Below, piece by piece: positions 6,060 through 24,440 of a DNA stretch of 64,000 nucleotides. Source of the DNA: Tetrahymena elliotti 4EA (taxonomy: Eukaryota; Ciliophora; Oligohymenophorea; Hymenostomatida; Tetrahymenidae); NCBI GenBank assembly GCA_000231825.2, contig JH720315.1, forward strand, positions 1,089,728-1,153,727, read 5' to 3'. The notes beneath the pieces were generated by a model. The model did no database searches. It was not told the origin of the DNA and saw only the letters and a program-made list of their open reading frames with translations. Every line of letters begins with the position of its first letter. Within the stretch, counting starts at the first letter, position 1. A program made the translations under genes and the position numbers.

Positions 6060-9000
6060 ATGTCAAAGAAAATTTTGGATTAGTTAGTAGAAACTATTTC
6101 ACCAAAAATATCCTATAATTGCTCCATTTAAAGATTATTATTGAGAGAGTTAATCTAGTAAATGTTTAATCAGAAAACGCACTTCAAAAATTTTGAATAT
6201 TTAAGCAATAATGCTTTTTCTCTAGATTTGAAGGCCATGAATATTTAATAGAATTGTTAGGTATGTCTTAGGTTTATAAAATACTCAAACTAAGATGGTA
6301 AGAATAGTATAGAATCTTTGTAAAAGGATTATGAGAAGCTACAAATGTTGAGTCCATCAGATTTTTTAGTAAATGTCTATGATCTTTTCTATTTAATGGA
6401 AGAAAATGAAGCTTAGGAAGAGAGTTAAAAAGAAATATCTACTTAAACTGATGTCAAATCCTTCTTTGTTGTAGAAATGGAGCTTTGCTAGAGTAAATAA
6501 ATTAAATTTTTTAAACCATTTTTTCTTAAAAAATAGCTCATCTTAAAAAAAAGTTATATTAAAAGTCATTTAAGGATGTTGATTTTAATAAATAAAATAA
6601 ATAATAAATAGGAATACTAATTAATTTTTAATACATGATAGAATAATCATTAAATTAAATATTATTAGAATAAATTATCAGCAATAAAAAATTATTTTTT
6701 AAAAAGCAAAGAAATTCAAAAATTCTAAATATTTTATTTTGCTAATTAATGGGTATTTTATGGTAGGTATATGTTTAAAAAGGGATTGATAAATTTTTAA
6801 TAAATACTTGATTGAATATATTTTAAATTTATTAAAATTGTGTCTTTTATATTATTTAGACAACCTTAAGGATTTGTTCAATTTCTTTAGAATAGAGTAG
6901 TTAGCATCGACAAATATAAAAGAAATATTAGCGATTTAAATGCTTGATGGATTAAATAGTCTTCATTTGAAAAACATTACACATAAAGATATCAGGCCTT
7001 AAAATTTCCAAATTAGCCCTTGCAAAAATATAGGATTTACTATCAAGCTTTGTAAAATATTCATGTTTTTAATTAATTAATTGATTAAATATAATAAATT
7101 AAGGTGGTTTAGGTTTTTCGTAAGTAGTTGCTAAATCTAAAAGATTCTAGCTTAAGGTTAATTTTATAAATATTTTTTTTAAATTAAAATTGCCATTTTT
7201 AATACAAAAAGAGAGTAAATGACACATATTCAGCTCCAGAAACAGAAAACGGATCACCAAGGATTCAGGTTTTAAAATTAATACTAAAATTTTATTTTTA
7301 AAAATGATTGTAAATAAAAGTCTGACCTTTTCTCAATGGGGCTAATTTTATTAGAACTTGATAACCTTAAAACTCTGGAAGAAGATTGGATTGATTCAAA
7401 TACTAGAGAATATCTTGTCAAGGGAAAAGAAATACCTCAAGAAAAATATTAGTTAAATAAGAAATCAAATATTTATAAAATAGCTTAGATATGCTTAAGA
7501 CCTAATTATCTAGATAGGACAAGTGCTGGTGATTTACTCTCTGATATTATAAAAATGCACAGTAAACCACTAGAATTAACTCTCACATCTATGATATTAG
7601 AAGTAATTTTAATACTTATTCATCAGGTTTTGATAAAATAGTGTTTCTATTCATCAAATTAGAAATATATTAACTGAATTATCAAGATTTAAAAATAAAA
7701 ATTATTTATTTGGTTTGCTTTTTTTTATGATTTGATTTTTGCTCTTAATTTATTTTTTTAAGAATTTTATTTATAAATAATAAATAACTAACTTTAGGAT
7801 AAAATTCAGATTTAGGCCTAGTAACTGGTTGATAGATTTAATTAGCAACAAAAGGTAAAAAATATTTTTATTTATTATTTATTATCAATTATTAATTTAA
7901 AAAGTTTAAATTAAAGAAGTAATTTAAACAAAGTTTATTTTATTAGCTTTCTTAAATTGATGAATTTGAATAATTTGTACTGGGAAATACATACTTTAAA
8001 ATCAAGAATAGGAATTTATCTTAATAATTTACTAATGTAGAAATATCATCCAACCTGCTTAAAAGTCTTTATGAAGATAAGAAATATTCAAATAACTTCA
8101 AAATTCTTAGCTTTGGAAGTGAAGGAATTTTGCTTTCTACCAAAAAAATTGAATCAAACAATGAAGAAATAGTACTTAAAATACAAAAAGTTGAGAATGA
8201 AGAAAACATCTAAAATGAGATCAGCATTATGTAGAAATTAAAAGAACCTTTTGTAGTCTAGCTTTATGATAGCTATTACATAGAAAAAGCTACAGTACCT
8301 GATAGATATGTGGTTTTTGAATTAGAAAAATGTTCATGTAAAAATTAATTATTCTATTAAGATCTATAATATTACTACCATTGTATACGAATTAACACCT
8401 ATCCCTCTCTCCCCCCTATAGATTTTGGAGTTAATAAATTTCTTTGGCCTAATAATTTAAGAAATATTAAGGGGAGGGGCGTGTAATATTTCAAGACTAA
8501 CATTTGCTAAATCTAATTTTAATTTTACAAAAAGGTTCACTGGAAGATTATATCAATAGATTAAATAAAGATGGGTTATTAAATGAAGATTCAAAGCTTA
8601 ATATTGCTATCGAAATAATAAAATGTGTTAATTACATTCATAGTTTTAACATTATCCACAGAGATATTAAAATAGATAATTTTCAGGTTTGCTTAGAAGG
8701 AGATTAAACTGAAATAAAGTTATGTAAATAACTTTTTAGTTTTATTTATTATTCAATATTTTAATAATTTGAAGGTAATTTTGGTTATTCAGTTCAGTTA
8801 GGAGACGATTAGGATTCAATTTAAATTTTAGAAGTAATATTATTGAAATGTATTCAAACTCTAATCTAATATATTATATCAATTTAGCCTATTGGAAATG
8901 TTGGATATATGGCCCCTGAAATTTTAACTAAAAAAGAAAATGAAAATAAGATTTATTCTAAGAAGGTATTTATTTGTTCAAAAATATAAATTTGCTATTA

Positions 9001-12000
9001 ATATTTATTTCTAAAAATAGTCAGATTCTTATTCTGTAGGATTAGTTTTAGCTTTAATTGATAACTATTAAGAGTTAAAAGAGTAGCCATCTCTTAGTTT
9101 TTTAAAGATGACACTATCTTAATCTTAAACATCCTTCTAAAATCAAAAGATTCAAATTAATGAAAATACAGAAACTTATTAATTTATAAAACCTTTAATA
9201 GAATCCGATTTTAATAATAGAACAACCATTTCTGAATTAGTAGAATTGAATAAGAAATATTTTTCATCTGATTTTGATGATATGGAAAATGAATTAAATG
9301 ATTTAGACAATCAAAATAATTAGGAAGAAACTTTAAAAAACTAAAATATTGAGATAAATAATATCAAGGATTTGAGTAAGATAGCAGGTTTTCAAGTCAT
9401 TCATATAAACTTAAAGTAATTTAAATTTATTTTCATTTTATGGCACAAATTTAATTAAATATTTGAAGATCAAATCAAATCGGAACATTAGGTGCAAAGA
9501 ATCTAGGGGCAGGAATAGCTGAATACAAGAACATTACAAATCTATCTATTGACTTATAGTAAAACCTAAATTTTTTAGTTACACTAGATTTAATTAACTT
9601 TTGATTTAGTTTTTGTTATCGAAAGTTTATTTAAGAATTTTTAAATCAAGTTAATTTGCTAAAAAAATATCTAATTTCTTTATCGTACTTCAATAACATT
9701 TTAATATTAACTAAATCAGTGTTTTTTATTCATCTTTTTTATCTATTTTTATTTATTTAACTTAAAAGTTGGAATAAGATTGGTGACTAGGGCATATAAG
9801 ATTTGGTGGTCAAAGGAATATCTTAATGCAAGAATATTACTAATTTAAAGCTTGACTTATAGTAAAGCATTATTTATTGATAAAGAATTCAAATAATGAT
9901 TATTTATTGATTTATCAGTTAAGTTTGGGCTAACTCAATCACACTTATTGATAAATTTTTTATTAATTCTAAAATCAAAATTAATAAAATTAAAAATTTA
10001 TTTTTCAAAATTAGTTTAAATCAAATTACTTCACTAGGTGCTAAATTTTTAGGCACAGGAATATCATAGTGTAAGGAGATCACACACTTAACACTTGACT
10101 TAGGGTAAAATTAATTTATTAGTTAATAAACTAAGTAATTAAGTAGCGTTGATTAATCTAGCAGATTAGATAATAGATATTTAAGAATTCTTTTAATCAT
10201 TTATATTGATATAAAATCCTATTTTATTATACTTCTCCCTTAGATTCATAAAATTATTTATTTATTTATCCTTATATTTAAAGTTTAAATCAAATTGGAG
10301 AATAGGGGGCAAGTGATTTAGGCTCAGGAATAGCAGAATGCAAGAATATAACAAATTTGGTGATTGATTTACGGTAATTATCAAATTGTGATCAATAAAT
10401 ACAAGTTTTCCAATTTTTTTCCCTTAAAGTGAGAATCAAATAGGTGATTCGGGTATTAAAGGTTTAGGCACAGGAATATCCTAGCTCAAGAATATCACAA
10501 ACTTAGCCCTTAATTTATAGTAAAATTGAATTTATTAATTGATAAAATAATGATAAGAGAATGAAATATTTAATAAATTTAACTAAATTTTTGATTTACT
10601 TCTTTCTATAAAATAATTTATTGGGTTAGTTATTAATTTAAAAATATAATTTTCTGAATTAAAGAAAATATTTTAAATAGGAATAAATTTTATTCTTTTA
10701 TAGATAATTTTCTTCAACATAAATTCATTAATTAAATAATAAAATAAAAAGTTTAAATCAAATTGGTGAATAGGGAGCTAAAGAATTTGGCACTGGAATA
10801 GCCTAGTGCTAGAATATCAGAAGTTTGACACTTGATTTTCGGTAAATTTAAATACATATAATAAGTAGAACAAATTTAATTAAAATATGAGCTTATTTAT
10901 TAGTTAATTGGATAAATATTTGAGGATTTTTCTATTTCCAACTAATAATGAAGAATTAATTAGCTTCTAAAAAAGCAATAAGAGAATGTAACACCCACCA
11001 CTTATTGTTACCCCGAATTAACCATAAGGTTAATTCGGGGTAACAATAAGTGGTGGGTGTTACATTCTCTGCAATACTAATTATTTAAAAAAATATTGAA
11101 TTTCCAATCATTAAATAATAATTTATTCTTAAATTTAAAGTGAGAATATGATTCTTGCTCAAGGAACAAATGATTTAGGTAAAGGGATATCTTAGTGCAA
11201 ACTCATAACAAATCTAATTCTAGACTTACGGTAAAGTTTTATTTCTACTTTTCAGCTAATTCAGAGCTTTTAATAAAATTGAAGTTGATAACTTAGTTTT
11301 AGTCTTACAAATTAAAATATTCTAAAACTCTGTCTAGCTGATTTATTTTAAAGCATTTTCTTGCTTATTTTAATAAAAATAAGTTGAAAATCAATACAAT
11401 TAATTAATTAATATTTAACTTTAAAAAAAGTTGGAATCAAATAGGTGATTTGGGTGCCAAAAAATTAGGCAAATGTTTAGCTTAGTGTAAGAATATCACT
11501 AATTTGAAACTTGATTTATAGTAATACTTAATTTATTGATGGATAATCTTTGATGCATTACTCTTCCCTTTTTTTAAATATAAGAATTTTTTTTAAAAAC
11601 GCATTTTTATAAACCTTTTTAATTGGATTAATTAAATTAACTATTTGTTCTTAACTTTAAAAGTTCAAATGCTATCACCTCTTAAGGTGCAATTGATTTA
11701 GGATTAGGAATAGCATAAAGCAGCAATATTACACATTTGGCAATTGACTTACGGTAAAGATTTAAAAGAAATTAGTTCATTTAGAATTTATAAATTTAGC
11801 TAAGCTTTACATTAATTTATAATTTTTTATGAGGCAAGATAGCTTTTTACTCTATTAGCTTATTTACGTATTTCCTAAAATAAAAATTATATAATAATTT
11901 AACTAATACTTTTGCTTCTTCATACTGGTCATTAATTTTATCTTTGAAGTTCTAATCAAATAGATTCTCTTGGTGCTAGAGGTTTAGGTAAAGGGATATC

Positions 12001-22521: not shown

Positions 22522-24440
22522 ATGAAGCATCAATAATTTGACGTAGAAAATGCTGCTGGTCATGATCAAGATGATCATCATGTTGCAGTCACAAATGGTA
22601 GCCACGATAGCCCTATTTTGCATGCATAAAATAGACATGATTCTTGTTGTTCTTAATCTACTAGAGATTCTGCAAATGACAATATTGTTAAGATATAATG
22701 GTATGTTGAAAACAGAGGTGTTTATTGGACAATTAAAATGATAGTTATTGGACTTATGCTGAGTGCTGTATGGCTTGGAAAGAATTATGGTACCGTAAAC
22801 AACAATAATCATTTATTTTAAGATTAAAAATAGACATTTCATGAAATTTTCTTTTAAACTCATATTAGGTTAAAAACACCTTATAATATTTTTATGTTTT
22901 TGAAAATTTAGAGTTTGATTTAAATTAATAAGTAGTCTTTGAAATAAATAAATACATCCATTTCATTTAATAGAAAAGCTGCAAGCAGCATAACAAAAAC
23001 TCATATTTTTCTTTTATAAATTTAACATTTTATCTTTTATTAATGATCTTTTTATTATTTGCAAATAAAGCCATCAGTTGAAGTCCCTAAGTTATCTGAC
23101 CCTATTCATGATGCCACAACCTATTTAAATAACTTGGTTAATCAAGATAAAAGCATTGCAATGTTCTTCTAAATCTCCGCCTCTATTATTATGGATTTCA
23201 GTTTCTTCGCTCTTTGCATTTATTGGTAAACGAATATAAATGATTCCATTTCCAAACTTTAAAATTACAAAAAAAGAAGCTAGCTCTTTACTTTACTTAA
23301 TATAATTTCAAAGAAAAATTATGAACAATCCAAAATGCATTTTTTAAGACTAATTAAAAGTGTAAAATATGCTCTTTAATGTGAATAATTTAGAAATAAG
23401 TCTATTCAAAGGATTTAATATTAATTTGATATTTTTGATGTTATTGATTTGCTAACCAATGATAATGATTAGCTAGTTTTACTTTCTAAAAGAAATTAAA
23501 TTCTTAAATAGTCTATGGAAAAATGTTACTATTAATTTTAATCAATGTAAATATAAGATATAAGCTTCCAAAAAAAAAAGAGTTATTTTGTAATCAAATC
23601 AAATTACAAATAAGCTCATCAAATGATAAAAAAATCAAATAAATAATAACATTATTTAAATTAATCTATCCTAACTTCTTTTATTTGTGTGTGCTTACAT
23701 TATTTATTTACAAATAAATAGGGTTATCAGAATTAATTCTGCAAGAGCTATTATTGCCATGGCTTGCTTCTACATCTTTAGAGGTCTTAATCAAGCCTTG
23801 ATTATTTTCCCCTTCCCTGAAGGATACTACTGGGATTACCCTAATTTCCCCTCTTACGTCACTCCTTATGGAAAAACCTCTGATTTCTTCTACTCAGGTA
23901 TTGCTTTTTATTCATTATCTTTTTTAGTATTAAGAATATTTTTATTTAAAATTAGGACATGTTGGTTTCTTAAATATTGTCGCTTTAGAATGGTATGAAT
24001 AAAAAAAATATTTTATGTTCTATCTTACATGCGCCTTTAACGTTTATATTGCCTTTGTCATGGTTGTCTTCAGAATTCATTACGTTGTTGGTAAAAGAAT
24101 TTTACATTTAAAATATTTATTAAAAATTTATTTTAGAATTTATTTAAACATTAAAAATTAATCTTTATTCATTTAATTTAAGTTTTTTTCAGGAAATTTT
24201 AGTATTTTTATGATAATAATTGAGTATTTTTAACATTTAAAATTAATAAATTTTATTAATAAACTAGACATTACCACTGGATTAGTTGTTTCTCATTATA
24301 TCTTTATGCTTATTTCTAAAAATAGTGATAAAATAGATTATTTATTTTAAAAAATATTCCACTGTACTGAAAGGTGCTTGGACTCTAGATCTAAAAACAA
24401 CCAAAGTTGTGATGAAGAGCTTTAAATCAATCGCCACTGA
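22522..24440 (+). CDS. Sphingomyelin-synthase-like (PAP2-C) membrane enzyme
   Basis: This 303-residue protein has five exons: 22522-22794, 23071-23225, 23722-23897, 23956-24090 and 24268-24440; all phases agree and TGA follows INRH. The first 65 residues are polar and His/Asp-rich. Hydrophobic segments follow near residues 73-88, 120-143, 150-172, 215-240 and 248-262. The two catalytic motifs of the PAP2-C/sphingomyelin synthase family are present: SDFFYSGHVG at about 197-206 and RIHYVVD at about 241-247, giving the His-His-Asp triad. Family members transfer a phospho-headgroup from a glycerophospholipid to ceramide or diacylglycerol in Golgi or plasma membrane. Which headgroup is used cannot be read from sequence; ciliates make aminoethylphosphonate sphingolipids, which is a plausible link. 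The Cys-rich C-tail (CTERC) is unexplained. Confidence 0.88.

Follow-up and report, generated by a model that had tools for sequence, protein, structure and literature searches.

A hairpin in a predicted intron of Tetrahymena elliotti is a palindromic MITE that apparently corresponds to one doubled end of a heterotypic element

How does a perfect hairpin, bordered on both sides by the same hexamer, come to lie in a predicted intron of an LRR-type gene of Tetrahymena elliotti 4EA, and what keeps its two arms identical? The hairpin is located in a stretch of 64 kb, which as a whole is called the window here, and genome-wide searches were carried out in the assembly of 89.95 Mb and 134 contigs to which the window belongs. 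The features of the locus and the terminus sequences are as follows.

10975..10980, strand not applicable: left target-site duplication GCAATA, a flush 6-bp repeat read from the sequence
10981..11023, plus strand: left arm of the family B palindromic element; the same or a variant arm occurs at 20 further two-armed loci
11024..11027, strand not applicable: apex ATAA, 4 nt; of the 20 B palindromes without a gap, 18 have ATAA or its complement TTAT here
11028..11070, minus strand: right arm, the exact reverse complement of the left arm, with pairing over 43 nt
11071..11076, strand not applicable: right target-site duplication GCAATA, read from the sequence
10842..11140, plus strand: predicted host intron of phase 2, with GT/AG borders and the phase read by eye
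10752..10841, plus strand: predicted upstream LRR-type exon of 90 bp, from sequence, intron border and reading frame
11141..11230, plus strand: predicted downstream LRR-type exon of 90 bp, from sequence, intron border and reading frame
8330..8674, plus strand: protein-kinase exon, presumed to belong to the same host gene (protein kinase profile PF00069 at 4.9e-08 with code 6)
Element terminus sequences: AGAGAATRTAACACCCACC, ATATATAGTATAATACAGGG, ATATATGTAGAAATACG

The original prediction of a perfect inverted repeat holds to the letter: the arms pair at 43 of 43 positions around the 4-nt loop, and GCAATA is flush with the element on both sides. The element is also, as had been claimed, GC-rich in AT-rich DNA, with 40% GC as compared to 21.8% GC for the window. 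At assumed base frequencies of 0.39 for A and T and 0.11 for G and C, the probability of 43 consecutive pairs is about 1.6e-21, which amounts to some 1.4e-12 expected occurrences per 90 Mb if loops of up to 10 nt are allowed. A scan of the window with a minimum repeat length of 25 nt and a limit of 200 nt listed two inverted repeats, of which the hairpin is one; the second, at 23717-23752, is imperfect (80% over 25 nt). Folded as RNA, the element reaches -79.7 kcal/mol versus a mean of -19.8 for shuffled sequences (z -18). Searching Rfam gave only matches under the gathering threshold of their family, the best of them to miRNA hairpins (60.8 bits versus 90 needed), as any perfect stem would give.

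The placement in an intron fits the sequence as well, with GT and AG borders around the predicted intron at 10842-11140. This intron measures 299 bp, or 203 bp after subtraction of the element and one duplication. The region around the element contains LRR-like repeated exons and, upstream, the protein-kinase exon, which we infer to be part of the same gene as the LRR-type exons. Tetrahymena LRR genes with 90-bp exons and phase-2 introns are described in PMC6564038, and in its exon length, intron phase and LRR character the host locus fits the class as outlined there. One protein encoded in the window has relatives in Tetrahymena malaccensis, T. utriculariae and T. thermophila (3 hits, 53-56% identity). 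When the joined intron flanks were used as query in the same genome, only the two flanks from the window and one partial match to the right flank (81%, at C14) were retrieved, and no empty paralogous intron was found there.

That the hairpin is a transposon-like insertion, as originally suspected, is strongly supported by the genome-wide search, which yielded more copies with 6-bp duplications of their own. The 102-mer composed of the element and its duplications matches many places in the same genome. The terminal 19-mer has 53 matches with up to 3 mismatches, of which 49 (47 exact and 2 with one mismatch) fall into 28 loci, designated family B; the remaining four, all with 3 mismatches, are fewer than the 12 matches obtained with a reversed control. 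Family B comprises 21 two-armed loci, including L027 in which 100 N lie between the arms, and 7 one-armed loci, where 'one-armed' means that one arm was found by the search patterns and a strongly decayed second arm could escape. Compared over 300 nt on each side, the flanks of the 21 two-armed loci are mutually unlike, and their GC content of 21.0% versus 21.8% for the window, determined by the same measure, reveals no compositional bias of the insertion places. A flush identical duplication of 6 bp, never a longer one, borders 20 of these loci. In the 21st, L010, the repeat ATAATT stands beyond two extra bases CT, and the right terminus reads CTCTCT instead of CTCT before the duplication. 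The apex is CGA in copy L066 and TCCGA in L070. In the one-armed loci L064 and L065, too, the arm is followed by TTAT, which is ATAA read on the opposite strand.

Besides palindromes, the genome harbors elements with two different ends. Locus L062 contains a complete element of 133 bp with a B end and another end, termed A, between GCTATT repeats; this A/B element falls inside the span of a code 6 reading frame (L062:8751-9548). The pattern of the A end has 28 matches (7 pairs and 14 singles), inspection of all of which gave 7 A palindromes, 4 heterotypic elements (L062, L080, L082 and L093) and 10 loci with one recognised arm. In L080, L082 and L093 the A end is combined with a third end, C; the duplication is AGTATT at L082 and GATACT at L093, and L080 is without a matching one. 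The A and C ends are alike in their ATATAT start and in GGCTCAA, a likeness as would be expected for imperfect inverted repeats of a single element. For the C end pattern 70 matches were found (19 pairs and 32 singles), of which all 19 pairs were fetched and 15 of the 32 singles inspected. Two one-armed C copies, L119 (C23:1086420-1086620) and L120 (C23:1081580-1081780), are on the same contig as the window, some 3 and 8 kb upstream of its first position.

The palindromes of families A and C resemble those of family B in construction. A 6-bp duplication is present in 7 of 7 family A palindromes, and an identical one in 17 of 19 two-ended C loci, the other two (L112 and L115) having one mismatch. 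The apex of 9 of the 19 C loci is ACAA or TTGT, a stem base being altered in two of the nine; in the heterotypic elements L080 and L082, the tetranucleotide next to the arm is likewise ACAA. Each palindrome family thus corresponds to a single end of a heterotypic element that has been doubled, with a very short apex between the arms (0-5 nt when unpaired bases are counted strictly). The centres are not uniform: five forms occur among the 7 A copies and several in family C. Together with the apexes of family B, this variation argues for more than one formation event. In the C palindrome L113 each arm has a gap of 7 nt, and the apex lies deeper and is of another form, which suggests that this palindrome was formed independently. 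The right half of L115 resembles the centre of L062 and L063, and L115 may be a further heterotypic element instead of a decayed palindrome.

The hairpin is a mobile element of the palindromic MITE type, i.e. a non-autonomous DNA transposon. Similar to other MITEs, the elements are short, dispersed and present in many copies (89-140 bp in those without gaps, with one C locus of 117 bp), and terminal inverted repeats are combined with duplications of fixed length: a flush identical repeat of 6 bp, never longer, is found at 44 of the 47 two-ended loci (B 21, A 7 and C 19). An element of this length leaves no room for a gene. The family is real and apparently young, and it resides in an apparently somatic type of Tetrahymena genome; its kind is ordinary, its anatomy unusual.

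Tc1/mariner elements use TA and piggyBac elements TTAA as target site, and neither assignment agrees with duplications of 6 bp and varied sequence. A Tc1-type transposase relic and a look-alike fragment recognised by eye are located at L086:543-1500 and at about 1325-1500 of L083 (minus strand), respectively, both directly outside the A terminus of one-armed A copies. A search of the assembly with PF13358, the profile of a Tc1-type domain, gave 24 matches, among them the relic in L086 (C32:629255); the fragment in L083 is absent from these matches. In view of the 6-bp duplications and the position of the relics outside the A terminus, they are to be regarded as targets and not as the source of the elements, and Tc1/mariner was rejected as mobiliser. 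The search with PF00665, the profile of the retroviral-type integrase domain, gave no match in this assembly, and an autonomous element for these termini was not recognised in this genome. The arm pattern has no exact match in IMG/VR, so a viral origin is unsupported.

More can be said about the target. The central step of the duplications is YR in 25 of 46 cases and RY in 1 of 46, versus 20.8% YR and 20.5% RY in the flanks, and the YR excess sits at the centre, the next highest step having 14 of 46. This count covers 46 of 50 examined loci, namely 44 palindromes plus L082 and L093; L010, L080, L112 and L115 were dropped because their duplications are not both flush and identical, and the count does not include L062. 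Retroviral integrases are described in PMC4422553 as favouring YR and/or avoiding RY at the target centre, with the weakest YR preference for retroviruses that produce 6-bp duplications. The strong effect seen here is therefore not a close match, and 6 bp with a central YR is not unique to retroviral-type integrases.

The two arms of a copy agree far better than arms of different copies. In comparisons of the left arm from one copy with the right arm from another, family B arms differ at 1214 of 18060 sites, versus 5 of 903 sites within copies, and 0 of 10000 permutations gave a value as low. Columns 8, 21, 23, 35 and 41 are variable between B copies with both arms always agreeing, and at the variable column 38 the arms agree except in L022. 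Discordance in family B is limited to five cells, one each in L022, L027 and L066 and two in L070; no column is discordant in more than one copy, and the arms are equal in 17 of 21 copies. All four combinations of variants occur among the B palindromes both at columns 8/21 and at columns 21/35; the variants seem to have recombined and are nevertheless present in both arms. In family A, 2 of 448 sites differ within copies versus 198 of 2688 between them. For family C the statistics include 18 of the 19 pairs, L131 (117 bp, 7 mismatches) being left out, and give 40 of 1278 differences within versus 3289 of 21726 between copies, the lowest of 2000 permutations being 96; without L115 and L116 the values are 10 of 1136 and 2278 of 17040. 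Discordance among C cells with a variant state common to at least two copies amounts to 15 of 131 in the 18 copies and 3 of 94 in the 16 copies. One discordant change, at column 16, is common to L112 and L117 and reflects either descent or recurrence.

This equality suggests that one half was copied from the other, for which the evidence is good though incomplete. Fully equal arms are found in 9 of the 17 C loci with an intact duplication. Copies with unequal arms include L117 (3 mismatches), L131 (7), L116 (9), L115 (27) and L112 (2); within family C, the exceptions to arm agreement sit in older-looking copies. The duplication is damaged in L112 and L115. We read these data as equalisation mainly at or before insertion, with evidence from age that is thin, since such damage is confined to these two copies, one of which, L115, may be something other than a palindrome.

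Taken together, we consider the hairpin, with a probability of roughly 0.7, to be a palindromic MITE which entered the intron of the LRR gene by germline insertion, was kept in the macronucleus, and was made by fold-back copying of one end. The insertion with a 6-bp stagger, the doubling of one end and the mostly equal arms are documented by the copies themselves. As to the mechanism, a single transposon end would fold back around a very short apex, and the second arm would be synthesised on the first by snap-back (fold-back) copying or a template switch. Such doubling would give a lone end the two functional termini of a complete element, and a transposition enzyme cutting with a 6-bp stagger would then insert the palindrome. 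The arm would be copied at or before transposition rather than after it, which is more likely because some copies keep unequal arms. A more far-reaching version holds that every transposition cycle makes the palindrome anew, from a mobile form that is a single arm or hairpin DNA on which the second arm is made. We put this forward tentatively, and with some doubt. If true, every new copy would start with identical arms, and a fold-back replicative cycle would exist for at least three end types and be carried into the soma.

The enzyme may be sought among the Maverick/Tlr (Polinton) elements. According to PMC8097293, vertebrate Mavericks have 6-bp target-site duplications and ends of the type (AG)3//(CT)3 or (AGT)2//(ACT)2. 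A retroviral-type integrase is encoded by the Tetrahymena element Tlr1 (PMC4642659), and the share of Maverick/Tlr elements in the germline genome of T. thermophila is reported as 1.9% (PMC5182062). From this combination of duplication length, AG-type ends, integrase and abundance, a retroviral-type integrase of the Maverick/Tlr kind, acting in trans from the germline genome, would be a candidate, with less support than the copying step and to be entertained as a possibility of modest weight. A stronger proposal is that the arms themselves are shortened Maverick/Tlr ends, i.e. snap-back genomes copied by a protein-primed polymerase. Likeness to the systems outlined in these sources extends to the 6-bp duplications, the AG-type terminus of family B (AGAGAA...TTCTCT, starting with AGAG), the presence of an integrase in the genus and the central YR of the target. 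Families A and C have ATATAT...ATATAT and thus do not start with AG, PF00665 gave no match in this assembly, and Tlr1 is said in PMC4642659 to lack the polymerase. Moreover, the Maverick/Polinton and Tlr elements described in PMC8097293, PMC4642659 and PMC5182062 are large and carry genes, unlike the present elements of 90-140 bp without a gene. On balance we find the proposal unlikely.

A different account dispenses with copying of an end during mobilisation: each family would descend from one palindrome that spread by cut-and-paste transposition, and the arms would be kept equal by gene conversion from arm to arm inside the inserted hairpin. The frequency of equal arms in B and in C loci with intact duplications is compatible with this, and the single apex tetranucleotide in 18 of the 20 gapless B copies could mean one ancestral palindrome. 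Against it stand the unequal arms kept in L117, L131, L116, L112 and L115 (the last perhaps heterotypic) and the centres that vary within families A and C, which suggest more than one formation, and we judge this account improbable.

RNA interference exists in the genus Tetrahymena. A selected hairpin RNA gene, i.e. a small-RNA precursor that spread by transposition and the complementarity of which is under selection, would agree with this, with the strong RNA fold, with the intron location, and with the fact that L070 accounts for two of the five discordant B cells and that these two would be G-U wobbles, on one strand or the other; the remaining three are not wobbles, several C copies have unequal arms and the three arm types behave alike, so that such a gene, proposed from sequence features, would be a very remote explanation. 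A small-RNA role is not needed to explain the element.

The one-armed copies bear on the question whether the palindromes are partly an artefact, in which shorter elements with a single arm had that arm mirrored by a short-read assembler. Of the family B singles, L062 is heterotypic, L063 has the linker of L062 followed by N, the arm of L069 is itself cut off by N, and L064, L065, L067 and L068 continue with unrelated sequence from the apex or next to it. Searching inside the one-armed B loci for the outer 6-mer gave a clear second end in L062 only; candidate second ends for L064 (113 bp) and L067 (44 bp) may have arisen by chance and were not counted. Of 12 fetched single-ended C loci, seven lead over to unrelated sequence from the apex or close to it, four have N at this point, and L130 has N inside the arm. 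The A loci L081, L083, L084, L086, L089 and L100 all end close to the same place, AAATCT or ATATCT, where the centre of the heterotypic elements is joined. One-armed copies may reflect assembly trouble at hairpins, apex cleavage or loss of one half. In L123 the other arm apparently continues beyond 100 N, and on this ground some of the gapped one-armed C loci are probably whole palindromes with a gap.

In favour of mirroring one may point to the 7 of 28 B loci that are one-armed, to the assembly gaps that open at the apex or close to it in L027, L069, L122, L123, L124 and L126, as if sequencing or assembly had broken down at this point, and to the use of SOAPdenovo or ALLPATHS-LG for the assemblies presented in PMC6564038, if this is one of them. 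Mirroring would not create a second locus-specific 6-bp duplication with unique flanking sequence, as seen at 44 of 47 loci, and arms with private mismatches were resolved; there is very little chance that the palindromes arose in this way.

The fold-back origin of an inserted MITE, the reading we prefer, also includes its retention in the macronucleus. The exact 15-bp Cbs breakage signal has 0 matches in the assembly, and matches with one mismatch (21) do not exceed those of a control (32); for the T. thermophila germline genome, PMC5182062 gives 225 Cbs copies, of which nearly half have the consensus. For lack of exact Cbs and of an excess of near matches, we infer that the assembly is macronuclear. 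If it is, DNA elimination left these copies in place. Presence in an assembly without exact Cbs, taken as macronuclear, also speaks against an internal eliminated sequence.

Whole-element palindromes are known from Caenorhabditis elegans, where the PALTTAA-type elements are non-autonomous and have TTAA or TA duplications. By this description they share the full palindrome, the non-autonomy and a duplication on insertion with the present elements, and differ in the TTAA/TA site. In ciliates, the IES repeats rnd-1_family-87 and rnd-1_family-160 of Blepharisma are also short palindromes, which their authors view as possible MITEs or MITIES (PMC9942856). These repeats are presented there as coming from germline-limited IESs, whereas the present elements occur in an assembly taken as macronuclear and are characterised by 6-bp duplications, heterotypic relatives and arm agreement. 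Fold-back inverted duplications, as treated in PMC3907307 and PMC7467729, similarly have one side copied head-to-head at a hairpin; those are chromosome rearrangements, whereas the product here is a mobile element.

A search of the open-licence literature by titles and abstract openings found no description of these elements. The question of how MITEs arise and multiply without an enzyme of their own has long been asked, and one proposal is that they are copied by way of a hairpin or fold-back. With heterotypic relatives, palindromes built from single ends, and concordant arms with recombinant haplotypes in one genome, such an origin becomes testable by sequence. Transposable elements of ciliates are described in PMC5182062 as restricted to the germline nucleus, and the T. 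thermophila macronuclear assembly is credited there with about 1 Mb of putative transposable element content. The present elements sit in what appears to be a somatic ciliate genome.
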